Below, one piece after another: positions 2,930 to 39,899 of a DNA stretch of 64,000 nt. The translations under genes were made by a program, and so were the position numbers. Within the stretch, counting starts at the first letter, position 1. Each line of letters begins with the position of its first letter. Below the pieces are notes generated by a model, which did not search any database, was not told the origin of the DNA, and saw only the letters and a program-made list of their open reading frames with translations. The stretch comes from an uncultured Lachnospiraceae bacterium (lineage in GTDB: Bacteria > Bacillota > Clostridia > Lachnospirales > Lachnospiraceae), in assembly GCA_930972465.1 (NCBI GenBank), contig CAKNHF010000004.1, positions 1-64,000 of the forward strand, read 5' to 3'.

Positions 2930-4372
2930 TCACCGGCCGGAAAACTCAATCTTTTTCAATGTTTTCTTAAACTGCACCGCAAACAGAACCGCCGTAAATG
3001 TCACTGCAAGCAGATCCGCGATCGGTTCCGCCATATATACAGCCATTGTCCGGTTTGATCGGATGATATGCGGCATGATATAGATCAGCGGGATCAGAAG
3101 AATGAACTTCCGCATGACAGCAACTACAATAGATTCTGTCGCTTTTCCCAATGCATTGAAGGTCATCTGGCAGGCCATCTGAATACCGAACAGGAACATG
3201 GAGCCCATATAAATCCGAAGCGCCGTCTTCGTATACTCCATCAGCCGGGCATCGGATGTAAACATGGCTGCAAATCCTCCCGGAAACAGCATAACCAGAA
3301 GCCACAGAAGGACAGAATATCCCAGGCTGACTTTGAGCAGAAGTTTGAATGCATTCCGCACCCTGCCGGAATCCCCGGCGCCGTAACAATAGCTGATGAT
3401 AGGCTGCGCTCCCTGTCCCAGTCCCTGGAGCGGCAGCATTGCAAACTGCATGACACTTGTCAGAATTGTGATGGCACCCACCGCAATGTCTCCTCCATAA
3501 CTCTGGAGAGAACTGTTAAAACATACGGAAATCACGCTCTCACTGGCCTGCATGATAAAAGTAGCGACCCCCAGCGCCAGACAGGGAAGTATGATATTCG
3601 GCGTAAGTCCCAGATTCTTTCTCTTTATCCGCAGAAATGTTTTCTTTCCGCACAGAAAGGCAACTACCCATATACAGGAGAGCGCCTGCGAGATGATCGT
3701 AGCCAGGGCTGCCCCCCGCACATCCATATTGAAACCGAAAATGAAGATCGGATCCAGAATGATATTGGCGACCGCACCGATCAGCACGGAGAGCATCCCC
3801 GTTTTGGCAAAGCCCTGGGCTGTGATAAACGCATTCATGCCGAGCGTGATCTCTACAAAGATCGTTCCCAGAGCATAGATATTCATATAGCTGACTCCAT
3901 ATTCAATCGTATTTTCACTCGCTCCGAATGCCATAAGGAAATCTCTGTTCCAGATCAGCAGAACGACGGTAAGTATGACAGAAATGATGATCTGGAGCAC
4001 GAAACAGTTTCCCAGTGTCTTTTCCGCTGACTCATGATCCTTCTTCCCCATAAATATGGAAGCCCTCGGTGCCCCGCCGTAGCCCACCAGAGCTGCAAAG
4101 GCGGAAACAATCATAATCAGCGGCATGCAGACCCCCACTCCTGTCAGCGCAGTTGCGCCAATGTCCGGAATATGGCCGATGTAAATCCTGTCAACGATAT
4201 TATAGAGCATATTGATCAGCTGAGCCGCCACTGTCGGCAGCGCCAGTTTCAGAAGCAGCTTTCCCAGAGGTTCTGTCCGCAGGAATTCCTTGTTTTCACT
4301 TCCCCCGGAACCGCCGCTGTTCCCTGCTGTCTGCACTTCTCTCTGATTCTGTTCTGTCTGTTTCATGACCAT
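2930..4372 (-). CDS. MATE-family efflux transporter
   Basis: 480-residue membrane protein with about twelve hydrophobic helices in two homologous halves. The polar N-terminus of about 35 residues leads into LPTVAAQLINMLYNIVDRIYIGH, a typical first MATE helix, and the second half repeats the pattern (MQFAMLPLQGLGQGAQPIISY). MATE proteins exchange sodium or protons for drugs and metabolites across the inner membrane. The ATG at 4372 overlaps the end of the MarR gene by ten bases; a second ATG six bases on is also possible. The shared promoter and the large operator upstream of marR imply repression by that MarR. Substrate unknown. Confidence 0.93.
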   Translation of the reverse strand: MVMKQTEQNQREVQTAGNSGGSGGSENKEFLRTEPLGKLLLKLALPTVAAQLINMLYNIVDRIYIGHIPDIGATALTGVGVCMPLIMIVSAFAALVGYGGAPRASIFMGKKDHESAEKTLGNCFVLQIIISVILTVVLLIWNRDFLMAFGASENTIEYGVSYMNIYALGTIFVEITLGMNAFITAQGFAKTGMLSVLIGAVANIILDPIFIFGFNMDVRGAALATIISQALSCIWVVAFLCGKKTFLRIKRKNLGLTPNIILPCLALGVATFIMQASESVISVCFNSSLQSYGGDIAVGAITILTSVMQFAMLPLQGLGQGAQPIISYCYGAGDSGRVRNAFKLLLKVSLGYSVLLWLLVMLFPGGFAAMFTSDARLMEYTKTALRIYMGSMFLFGIQMACQMTFNALGKATESIVVAVMRKFILLIPLIYIMPHIIRSNRTMAVYMAEPIADLLAVTFTAVLFAVQFKKTLKKIEFSGR

Positions 4373-33003: not shown

Positions 33004-33750
33004 TTATATAAGGTTGATATCTATCTTTTTCAGTTTTTCATACAGTGCCTGAGGACCCGTGGTATCTTCCTTGATATTATCCATCTCGATCCGTATCTCC
33101 TGCATGGTCTCGTCCACATGGGCGATCTCATCCGCGCATTCTTTCAGACGCGCGATCACTTTCTCCGCATGCTCCACATTCTGCTTGTACTTGATCTGAT
33201 GCTCCAGACTTGCCCAGAAATCCATAGCAATGGTGCGGATCTGTACCTCTGCCTTCACTTCCTTCACCGACTCCGCGAAGAAGATCGGAACACTGATGAT
33301 CAGATGAAGGCTCCGGTATCCGTTGGGTTTGGGATTGCTGATATAGTCTTTCCTGCGGATCAGTTTGATATCGTCCTGTCTTGTCAGGGCATCCGCCAGG
33401 AGATAGATATCATCTATGTAGGAGCAGATCACCCGGATCCCGGCGATATCATTGAGATGCTCCTCAATATTCTCTCTCGTAGGCGGAATCCCCAGTCTCG
33501 CCATCTTCTCAATGATACTGGTCTGACTCTTCAGGCGGGTCTCGATCGAACTGATCGGATTTCTCTTATACCTCACCTCAAATTCCGTATCCAGCACCTC
33601 AAACTTCGTATTGATCTCCTTGATCGCGCAGGCATATCCCATCATCAGTTCTTTATAATCCAGCACATCGTCGAGCAGATCCATCGCCTGTCCCAGCAGC
33701 AGATTCCTGCCGTCTCCATTGAGAAACCCAAGCACGTTTTCTTTCTCCAT
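33004..33750 (-). CDS. Small alarmone synthetase (RelQ/YjbM-like GTP pyrophosphokinase)
   Basis: 248 residues with a single RelA/SpoT synthetase domain: IEKMARLGIPPTRENIEEHLNDIAGIRVICSYIDDIY, RRKDYISNPKPNGYRSLHLIISVPIFFAE and VEVQIRTIAMDFWASLEHQIKYK. It lacks hydrolase and ACT/TGS domains, so it makes (p)ppGpp from ATP and GDP/GTP. An N-terminal helical region and the C-terminal helix match tetrameric SAS1 enzymes. Start has an AAGGGAGA site. A structured RNA with a terminator lies about 300 bases upstream on the same strand. Confidence 0.92.
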   Translation of the reverse strand: MEKENVLGFLNGDGRNLLLGQAMDLLDDVLDYKELMMGYACAIKEINTKFEVLDTEFEVRYKRNPISSIETRLKSQTSIIEKMARLGIPPTRENIEEHLNDIAGIRVICSYIDDIYLLADALTRQDDIKLIRRKDYISNPKPNGYRSLHLIISVPIFFAESVKEVKAEVQIRTIAMDFWASLEHQIKYKQNVEHAEKVIARLKECADEIAHVDETMQEIRIEMDNIKEDTTGPQALYEKLKKIDINLI

Positions 33751-34050
33751 TTTTATCTCCCTTCTGACAGTTTTCTACTGTCCGGCTCATATCTCCTATT
33801 TTAGCCGTCCCGTCAGAGATCATCAATAAAAATAGACTATATTTTTTTGAAAATTGTTTGAAAATCATTTCCGAATTATTAAAATCGGTTATGGAAAGAC
33901 GCCAGGTACTCCTCACAGATCAAAGCCGTTAAGCGCTGTGGTAAAAGCAGAGGGCCCCTCCCCGACTGGTTTCAATCCGGAGCGGAAGCCGCCCTGCTCG
34001 CTCCCGCCGCCTGTTCTGTATCGATCGTAAGGTCCTTTCCTATAGAATTA
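33751..34050. other. Gene-free interval
   Basis: The 300 bases between the synthetase start and the RNA terminator at 34051 contain no convincing reading frame. The part near 33800-33890 is AT-rich and could hold the synthetase promoter. 33895-34040 is GC-rich, with a short frame ending in AAGASRAASAPD that may be a gene remnant. Nothing can be assigned. Confidence 0.4.
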
Positions 34051-34228
34051 AAAAAACCGGATAAGATATAAGCTTTTGCTTATCTCTTATCCGGTCCTGT
34101 CATTTCACCGAATGACTTTACCTCCGAGGAACAGGATCTGTCTCCTGCCTCTTATCCGGCCAGCCGCTCTCGCCCCGGCTGCCCCTCCGAGCAATGTGCA
34201 GTCTAGCACAAGTTTTTCTGTTTGTCAA
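34050..34228 (-). ncRNA. Tandem structured leader RNA with overlapping terminator
   Basis: Minus-strand promoter TTGACA (34223-34228)/TAGACT (34200-34205), spacer 17, starts an RNA of about 140 nt. Module 1 (34191-34149) and module 2 (34128-34084) share CUCGGAGG at the 5' end and CCGGAUAAGAG at the 3' end, enclosing different hairpins: CAGCCG/CGGCUG in module 1, GUCAUU/AAUGAC in module 2. The 3' strand of module 2 is also the 5' arm of an 18-base terminator stem (34056-34073 with 34078-34095, one mismatch), followed by seven U. The alternative pairings resemble a tandem-aptamer riboswitch. No known class was recognised. Confidence 0.7.
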
Positions 34229-36958: not shown

Positions 36959-37085
36959 TATACATGGAGATCTTTATAATAATATTCCAGATCCCGGTCT
37001 GTGATCTCCCGGATCACTCTGCACGGATTTCCTGCTGCTACCGAGTTTGGCGGAACATCCTGGAGCACCACGCTTATCGATCCAT
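36959..37085 (-). pseudogene. Hexapeptide-repeat acetyltransferase C-terminal remnant
   Basis: About 40 codons read SVVLQDVPPNSVAAGNPCRVIREITDRDLEYYYKDLHV, the end of a maltose/galactoside O-acetyltransferase. All the catalytic left-handed helix upstream is gone and no stop codon ends the homology; the frame simply runs antisense to the TetR gene. Confidence 0.8.
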
Positions 37086-37093
37086 TCACCGGA

Positions 37094-37219
37094 TCATGAT
37101 AACAGTTGCTCTTTTACATGTTTGATATACTTTTCCGCCGCAATCCCGAAAGGCTGATATCTCTTCCAGACAAGAGCGCAGTCTGCCTTCAATTCGGGCT
37201 TCAGCGGCCTGTATGTGAT
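37094..37219 (-). pseudogene. LysR-type C-terminal remnant
   Basis: About 41 codons, ITYRPLKPELKADCALVWKR then YQPFGIAAEKYIKHVKEQLLS and a TGA, match the last part of a LysR effector domain. Nothing of the HTH remains. It lies between the acetyltransferase remnant and the iron alcohol dehydrogenase. Confidence 0.75.
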
Positions 37220-38477: not shown

Positions 38478-39899
38478 CTATCCGATCACACGGAACTCTT
38501 TCCACTTTCCTCTCCGGAATCTGATCCAGAAGAACATTGCCCGGATCATCCAGTCCAGACACATGGCGAACGCGATCCCGATCACCCCCAGGTCCAGGAA
38601 GATTCCGAACAGGATTGAGAATACCACGCGGCATCCGATGGTGGAAAAAATACTCACATACATGGTATATCTCACATCCCCCGCTGCTCTCAGCCCGTTT
38701 GCGAGAGCGCCGGAAAGAGGATAGAACAGAGCGTTAAAGATATTGTGTATGATGACCAGGACCACCACCAGATCCGCCGCCTCATCCGACAGCGCATATC
38801 CCTTCAGGACAAGGGGCGTCGCAGCCAGGATCAGGGCATTCCATAGGATCGATGCAAGGAAGGTGATCCGCAGCAGTTTCTTCATATAATATTCCGCTGC
38901 TTCCGTATCTCCCGCTCCCATGCACTGCCCGATCACAGTGACAAAGGCAAGCCCCAGGGCGGTCCCCATCAGTGCCGCCACGGACCAGAAGCTCTGCGCC
39001 ACTCCATTCGCCGCGATCTGCACGGTCCCGAACAGGGCAGTGATGCTGCTGAGAGCGACTTTCGTGAGCTGAAACAGCCCGTTCTCGATCCCGTTGGGCA
39101 CGGCAATACTCAGAATTCTCTTCACCATGCTGCCCTCCCATCGGAAGATATTTTTCCAGACAAGGCGGACGCTGACCGGACAGTTCTTTTTCCGGAAACA
39201 GAGAATCAGGATCACCACTGCGGAAAATGTCCTGGCGATCAGGGACGGATACGCGACCCCCGCCACGCCTGCGTGGAGTACGAACACCCCAACGGCATTC
39301 CCGACGATATTAATCCCGTTTGAAGCCAGAGAGATATTCATGGTCACACCGGTCTTTCCCATACTCCGGTAGACTGCCGCCCCGGCGTTATAGATCGCGA
39401 TCGCCGGATAGGAATATGCCGAGATCTGAAGGTATGTCACGCACACCTCCATCACATCCGGGTCCACCTCTCCGAACAGGAGCCTCAGGAGCTGACGGTT
39501 CAGCGCCAGAGAGAAAACTGTCACCGCCGCGGAAAAGACTGCTGCGATCATCACCAGTTGTCCTGCGGAGAGATTTCCGTTCTTCTCATCCCTGCTGCCG
39601 ATATACTGGCTTACCACCACGGCGCCGCCGGCCGCCAGCGCAGAAAACAGAAAGATAAAAACCATATTGAACATATTCACAAGGGATACGCCGGATACCG
39701 CCGCCTCCCCAGCATAGCTGACCATGAACGTATCGGAAACCCCAACCAGCACCTCCAGAAGCTGTTCCAGGAAAAGCGGGACGATCAGGATCTTCAGATC
39801 ATGGTTTGAAAAGATCTTTCTCTCATCCGGTATTGTCCCTGCCGGCTCTGTCAGCCGGTATATCAGTCCTCTCATCAGAATTTCCCTCTTATCCTTCAT
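38478..39899 (-). CDS. MATE-family efflux transporter
   Basis: 473 residues, about twelve helices. N-terminal helix region LKILIVPLFLEQLLEVLVGVSDTFMVSYAGEAAVSGVSLVN is typical of MATE, as are VSQYIGSRDEKN and VAQSFWSVAALMGTALGLAFVTVIGQCMGAGD in the second half. A promoter with TTGGAT and TATACT (spacer 18) lies just upstream near 39910-39940. There is no neighbouring regulator. Substrate unknown. Confidence 0.93.
   Translation of the reverse strand: MKDKREILMRGLIYRLTEPAGTIPDERKIFSNHDLKILIVPLFLEQLLEVLVGVSDTFMVSYAGEAAVSGVSLVNMFNMVFIFLFSALAAGGAVVVSQYIGSRDEKNGNLSAGQLVMIAAVFSAAVTVFSLALNRQLLRLLFGEVDPDVMEVCVTYLQISAYSYPAIAIYNAGAAVYRSMGKTGVTMNISLASNGINIVGNAVGVFVLHAGVAGVAYPSLIARTFSAVVILILCFRKKNCPVSVRLVWKNIFRWEGSMVKRILSIAVPNGIENGLFQLTKVALSSITALFGTVQIAANGVAQSFWSVAALMGTALGLAFVTVIGQCMGAGDTEAAEYYMKKLLRITFLASILWNALILAATPLVLKGYALSDEAADLVVVLVIIHNIFNALFYPLSGALANGLRAAGDVRYTMYVSIFSTIGCRVVFSILFGIFLDLGVIGIAFAMCLDWMIRAMFFWIRFRRGKWKEFRVIG

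Follow-up and report, generated by a model that had tools for sequence, protein, structure and literature searches.

A terminator-overlapping leader RNA linked to MATE exporter genes, a candidate riboswitch with a tandem copy in a Lachnospiraceae genome

A leader RNA encoded in a 64,000-nt stretch of DNA from an uncultured Lachnospiraceae bacterium (contig CAKNHF010000004.1, positions 1 to 64,000; referred to as the window) belongs, judging from sequence comparison, to a genuine and widespread family of exporter-linked attenuator RNAs, most likely a riboswitch of a class for which we found no description. Three general features of riboswitches are present: conserved nucleotides lie within covarying helices, the RNA occupies the leader position before related genes, and its expression platform excludes its aptamer. 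We consider it likely that the motif is a cis-acting transcription attenuator through which efflux-pump genes are turned on, and most probably a riboswitch belonging to a class absent from Rfam.

Architecture of the tandem element

The earlier note on this DNA, made from the letters alone, had described a strong minus-strand promoter followed by two consecutive modules of the form CUCGGAGG-hairpin-CCGGAUAAGAG, and all of these elements are present (Table 1). TTGACA (34228-34223) and TAGACT (34205-34200) are separated by a 17-nt spacer, and transcription is expected to start at module 1 or just before it. In each module CUC was said to pair with GAG, leaving an internal loop GGA/GGAUAA. This fold is exact in module 2, whereas module 1 is shifted by one G, so that its loop is GGAG/GGAUAA. 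Seven U were claimed to follow an 18-bp terminator stem; they are found at 34056-34050, but the stem is predicted to consist of 14 and 6 pairs flanking one mismatch. Mutual exclusion of the second aptamer fold and the terminator is borne out, because the 3′ strand of module 2 is at the same time the 5′ arm of the terminator. The strand shared by the aptamer and the expression platform is CCGGAUAAG.

Table 1 Features of the window and sets of related loci
Feature	Position or loci	Strand	Remark
Sigma-70-type promoter, TTGACA-17-TAGACT	34200..34228	-	Consensus at 10 of 12 positions
Module 1 (P1a): outer helix CUC/GAG, internal loop GGAG/GGAUAA, GC-rich inner hairpin	34149..34191	-	
Linker hairpin: GAGG of module 1 (3′ strand) with CCUC of module 2 (5′ strand)	34126..34151	-	-10.7 kcal/mol
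Module 2 (P1b): outer helix CUC/GAG, loop GGA/GGAUAA, inner hairpin GUCAUU/AAUGAC	34084..34128	-	77 bits with model R1
Intrinsic terminator: 5′ arm including CCGGAUAAGA of module 2, AAAA loop, U7	34050..34095	-	-26.4 kcal/mol
Leftover 3′ coding end of the lost operon's second MATE gene	34001..34037	-	37 bp, 95% to G419, 92% to G403
Remnant of the nitroreductase gene	33885..34010	+	Gene next in order in relatives
RelA/SpoT-domain small alarmone synthetase	33004..33750	-	Brought next to the RNA by deletion; not its original target
Guanidine-IV-like leaders upstream of SugE	L242-L245, L247, L257-L260		
Cytidylate-kinase-like gene or piece	L036, L055, L063, L093, L097, L068, L084		

When folded alone, module 2 takes the proposed fold at -9.4 kcal/mol, and module 1 reaches -17.5 kcal/mol with its inner helix shifted by one G. 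Module 2 together with the terminator gives -31.4 as the terminator versus -15.8 when constrained as the aptamer. The fold of the leader lies 6.2 s.d. below those of dinucleotide shuffles, 0 of 200 shuffles being equally stable. In the minimum-energy fold of the whole leader, the terminator is kept and the two modules are mispaired, with neither formed. A terminator as the favoured fold suits a switch that is off by default, but it also implies that the resting leader does not contain the module folds. The linker hairpin is predicted to compete with both modules. The exact two-part pattern occurs twice in the genome assembly of the window (2.81 Mb, 86% complete), here only, and 0 times when reversed.

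On inspection by eye, the terminator is topped by a short hairpin whose loop is often GNRA-like, and such a hairpin also lies between tandem modules.

Homologs and covariation

Searching GTDB contigs with the exact pattern gave 83 loci. At 58 of them a TTATCCG arm, which could form the terminator and is not part of the search pattern, follows within 70 nt of the motif. The remaining 25 were judged from their flanks; L034, L042, and L091 among them are true variants, and many of the others look like chance.

A covariance-model search had been proposed as a check, and our model (R1, built from 35 sequences) matched 77 of 397 sampled genomes, representing 70 of 334 genera, of the window's family at E ≤ 1e-4. 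At E ≤ 1e-10, matches were found in 24 of 58 genomes of the window's genus, and at E ≤ 1e-4 in 15 of 391 genomes of a sample of the class, the window's own genome being counted in both cases. Two of the latter 15 (L164 and L166) are without the CGGAGG core and doubtful. With a looser threshold (E ≤ 0.1), 53 of the 391 class-sample genomes are matched, but many of these matches are weak, and the core is absent where inspected. Some genomes belong to more than one of these samples (family, genus, and class), and the window's genome is in all three. R1 also matched all three genomes picked for having pattern loci.

Named carriers of the motif include Mediterraneibacter, Blautia, Merdimonas, Negativibacillus, Clostridium drakei, Phascolarctobacterium faecium, and Streptococcus moroccensis. 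Two pattern matches in viral contigs, with no terminator arm in their flanks, were taken as chance. A blastn search of the leader against plasmids and phages returned short matches only, at E 0.1 or worse.

Covarying homologs had been named in advance as what a functional RNA should have, and they were found: covariation in the helices was 0.473, versus 0.232 after shuffling and at most 0.084 when pairing partners were slid by 1-3 columns. The underlying alignment (A6) holds 114 model-aligned matches, 103 of them distinct. In these 103 rows 91.9% of the helix cells are paired, a value that applies to an alignment fitted to the model and containing 6 antisense rows, which arise from the near-symmetric terminator. 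The outermost pair is C-G in 65 of the 103 rows, A-U in 12, G-C in 2, U-A in 1, G-U in 1, and non-standard in 22. Some of the rows with a non-standard outermost pair seem, on a reading by eye, to be bulge-shifted.

The first homologs came from the exact pattern, so core identity is forced in those, and many are close relatives. Conservation of the core was counted in 43 distinct sense rows, none of which contains the exact search pattern. GGAUAA is unchanged at every position in all 43 rows and the C-G-G-A positions are each conserved in 42 or 43, while the outer strands vary.

The start of the inner helix was compared in 94 modules, a set from which 4 nested or chance rows were left out and to which 5 variants were added by hand before removal of duplicates. 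One register is found in 64 modules and the other in 14, with 16 ties. With two registers in use, the loop is not strictly uniform and reads GGAG or GGA on its 5′ side. Compact members with only a short inner hairpin also exist (L027, L051, L042, and L071), the compact form of the putative aptamer being 28 nt long (L027 and L042). The terminator helix was compared in 35 sequences, where 99.3% of the cells are paired and the end pair is G-C in 16, A-U in 14, and G-U in 5. Its loop is AAAA in the window and short and variable in relatives.

Because GGAGG is a perfect Shine-Dalgarno sequence, it could be used as the ribosome site of a short leader ORF, and attenuation could then be ribosome-mediated. 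However, an ATG, GTG, or TTG codon is found 4-12 nt after GGAGG in only 30 of the 94 modules (ATG in 11 of 94), meaning that a leader ORF is not conserved. The loop lengths vary, and the compact members leave almost no room for such an ORF. Ribosome-mediated attenuation is thus highly improbable.

Position in leaders and downstream genes

Of 86 distinct upstream regions, 74 have a promoter-like -10 element that ends 4-14 nt before the motif starts, compared with a mean of 5.3 for shuffled sequences. Since these promoter-like sites end just before the motif, it is probably the first RNA transcribed.

Downstream, an ORF of at least 80 aa starts within 450 nt at 74 of 84 loci, and 10 of 84 are without one. 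With the neighbour in the window itself (the synthetase) left out, 73 downstream proteins were obtained, many of which are close relatives. The families that they match include MatE (65 proteins), MFS (2), LysR (1), Cytidylate_kin2 (1), and histidine kinase (1), and one downstream protein is named Bcr/CflA efflux. In a second round, 8 proteins selected from both surveys gave MatE (5), an ABC transporter (1, at L218), threonyl-tRNA synthetase (1, at L214), and LysR (1, L197 again). The second-round survey covered 25 slices, of which L222 and L224 were left out for wrong boundaries and L215 had no ORF.

At L218 the ABC transporter that the motif precedes has fused membrane and ATPase domains. 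L214 has a compensated outer helix AUC/GAU, with the threonyl-tRNA synthetase gene about 200 nt downstream of the motif; no piece of a MATE gene of the type found in the related genome G407 was detected there. Pieces of MATE genes, 66-86% identical to the G407 gene, follow the motif at L068, L084, L154, and L197. Hence several apparent exceptions are lost pumps, and such loss behind a conserved switch seems to recur.

A cytidylate-kinase-like gene or piece follows at 7 of 16 long loci with MDFLNG-type MATE matches (PF13189 in L124). This neighbour could hint at the chemistry of the ligand.

The downstream genes also bear on the possibility that P1, the hairpin formed by a module, is stabilised by a trans-acting RNA-binding protein, whether of the BglG/LicT type, CsrA, or another. 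A hairpin overlapping a terminator is also the layout of LicT-type RAT sites, and the two GGA motifs resemble CsrA sites. Yet the motif is followed by exporters, not sugar systems, and neither protein seems required: among 40 presumed carrier genomes (not all of which are complete, G462 moreover being a weaker match), CsrA was found in only 11 and a CAT_RBD antiterminator in 28. We regard control by such a protein as unlikely.

Proposed mechanism

Our preferred reading, a ligand-controlled attenuator, could work as follows. The first RNA made would be hairpin P1, whose internal loop CGGA(G)/GGAUAAG is conserved, and the 3′ strand of P1 doubles as the 5′ arm of the terminator just ahead of the exporter gene. 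Because P1 and the terminator share this strand, P1 would be the antiterminator. Without ligand, the terminator would displace P1 and transcription would stop. With a ligand in the internal loop, P1 would be held, the terminator blocked, and the exporter made. Exporters are typically raised by the compound that they remove, and for this reason the likely sense of the switch is ON by ligand.

Tandem copies may add a further step. Pairing of GAGG in module 1 with CCUC in module 2 across an intervening hairpin is predicted in 16 of 17 distinct tandem linkers. As CUC/GAG is common to both modules, three of the four linker pairs are given in advance, and what is added as evidence is the fourth pair, G-C, together with the adjoining hairpin. 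The linker between modules 1 and 2 repeats the relation between module 2 and the terminator, which suggests a chain, possibly a relay of the tandem copies. As long as module 1 is empty, it would hold module 2 blocked through GAGG/CCUC, an occupied module 1 would free module 2, and an occupied module 2 would stop the terminator from forming. Read-through would then need both modules to be occupied, making the pair a series gate with a steeper response.

It is quite possible, although we stop short of calling it probable, that all these elements belong together in a new riboswitch class widespread in gut Clostridia. Its very small aptamer would sense a toxic compound and raise MATE and MFS exporters, and its tandem form would be a strand-exchange relay, in which an empty module captures the 5′ strand of the next one and the last module meets the terminator.

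A switch that is carried by about one-fifth of the genomes sampled from the family, and that is linked to MATE exporters, would provide a direct handle on pump substrates. Once the ligand is identified, the substrate class of the pumps would follow; guanidine and fluoride are precedents in which the ligand revealed the substrate class of exporters. The relay, if formed, is a simple design for steep gene control.

Comparison with known riboswitches

Comparison with Rfam, also proposed earlier, gave 0 matches in the window (Rfam 15, gathering thresholds) and tRNAs only on 6 related loci. A 551-base stretch gave 8 matches, all sub-threshold. Guanidine-IV-like leaders have no Rfam 15 match at gathering thresholds either, so a missing Rfam match says little on novelty. 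In the open-access literature, the titles and abstract starts among the matches listed contain no description of the motif, and in the main text of two open genome-wide riboswitch surveys MATE and multidrug are unmentioned. An earlier description of the motif elsewhere is possible.

The known riboswitches of closest interest are guanidine-IV and its variant Gd4v, for both of which terminator use and links to MATE genes among others are reported (PMC7736828, PMC9788692). Like the present motif, guanidine-IV (also GGAM-1 or the mepA motif) is described as a 5′ leader of exporter genes including MATE, with a terminator that is blocked on ligand binding (PMC7736828, PMC11611296). As published, it has two hairpins, a kissing loop-loop pseudoknot, and conserved nucleotides in the second loop. 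In contrast, the present motif consists of a hairpin with an internal loop, the 3′ strand of which serves as the terminator arm, and the conserved nucleotides lie in P1 and the terminator stem.

Cross-model searches were made with R1 and with a guanidine-IV-like model (R2), whose leaders were taken from regions upstream of SugE in genomes of the family to which that of Streptococcus moroccensis belongs. These leaders have two hairpins with complementary loops, ACC/GGU or GCC/GGC, and fit the published description, the identification being our own. R2, resting on 9 SugE-linked leaders from one family of genomes and on an automatic structure that missed the second hairpin, gave no match at E ≤ 1 to any of the 83 motif sources; its positive control L243, itself a training sequence, scored E 4.5e-19. 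Conversely, R1 gave no match better than E 0.25 on 16 guanidine-IV-like or guanidine-I loci. Guanidine-IV membership was rejected on the basis of these searches and the different architecture.

The gene contexts can also be compared. SugE is the commonest guanidine-IV gene, and its family PF00893 is absent from those matched by the 73 downstream proteins; MATE is common to both. At SugE loci of the window's class, guanidine-I was found in 5 of 7. For Gd4v, a transaminase is reported as the commonest gene, and the published architecture has a guanidine-IV pseudoknot with an altered core (PMC9788692). Between them, the 73 downstream proteins match 9 families, of which none is a transaminase. This gene context sets the motif apart from Gd4v, and the guanidine-IV model finds no motif source. 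That the motif is a member of guanidine-IV or Gd4v has, in our estimate, hardly any likelihood.

Two other riboswitches share single features with the motif. The HMP-PP (thiS) riboswitch has, going by its title, an aptamer embedded in the terminator (PMC6478431), but its genes and ligand are different, and the motif has no Rfam match. The yjdF azaaromatic riboswitch is suggested to raise an exporter on planar toxic compounds (PMC7266159). The motif differs in that it gives no match to this family in Rfam. Inspection by eye also led to the rejection of K-turn and UAA/GAN motifs, for which the required pairs do not fit.

The internal loop can further be compared with the in-vitro-selected FMN aptamer, whose loop is AGGNUAU/AGAAGG with a G.G mismatch. 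The strands GGAUA and GRAG of the motif lie in the same antiparallel order as in that aptamer, and 8 of 9 core positions are alike in the commoner register, although the register varies. The motif usually has G for A at one loop position and carries one extra A, and 14 of 94 modules have a pair where the G.G mismatch would be. A literature search found no paper giving the sequence of the in-vitro FMN aptamer. By this analogy the loop might be a natural version of the aptamer that senses flavin or a flavin-like planar molecule, which we hold to be very improbable. E. coli YeeO, a MATE protein, is reported as a flavin exporter (PMC12934955).

An orphaned copy in the window

The earlier note held that the RNA once controlled, or still controls, a gene to its 3′ side, possibly the alarmone synthetase. 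Past control of a 3′ gene is borne out by the relatives, which have a MATE operon downstream, and the window retains scraps of it. The synthetase, on the other hand, loses its place as the target because the MATE operon intervenes in relatives, where the synthetase starts about 6 kb (L124) or about 10 kb (L127) further on.

In G407, the order is a C39 peptidase gene, the tandem RNA, a MATE gene, a cytidylate-kinase-like gene, a second MATE gene, an acetyltransferase gene (named by eye), a nitroreductase gene, the synthetase gene, and a MarR-like gene. The window is homologous to G407 from the peptidase gene as far as 34036, just past the terminator. Beyond that point, a scrap of the end of the second MATE gene and part of the nitroreductase gene precede the synthetase gene. 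The counterpart of the 37-bp remnant in the G419 and G403 loci is the end of the second MATE gene. G403 has kept the synthetase and has no RNA at the corresponding place; R1 gave there only one weak match elsewhere (E 0.005). The ortholog of the lost MATE gene was not found in the window's genome, the best match to the first 110 residues of the relative's protein being 39% identical. A best match of 39% indicates that the ortholog is absent from this incomplete assembly. On this comparison of loci, the window retains the full sequence of the switch, which has been orphaned by deletion of its downstream MATE operon, and nothing suggests a present function of the RNA in the window itself.

As no exporter remains downstream in this genome, the window copy could alternatively be a constitutive terminator or a stand-alone small RNA with no regulatory role today. 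This explanation fails to account for the conservation and the exporter linkage in relatives, and we find it very unlikely; it may describe the present state of the window copy alone, with the family as a whole read as an exporter-linked attenuator.

Several other genes and gene pieces in the window were noted. An SMR/SugE-family gene (PF00893) is at 2549-2827 on the plus strand, and a nearby stretch at 2996-4225 on the minus strand aligns with MATE proteins. At the SugE locus L133, no guanidine riboswitch was detected by Rfam. Another MATE gene, at 38478-39899 on the minus strand, is 4.3 kb upstream of the RNA and about 25% identical to the switch-linked MATE of relatives. At 36970-37095, also on the minus strand, 42 residues are 62% identical to a near-end part of the acetyltransferase of the lost operon, displaced from its place.
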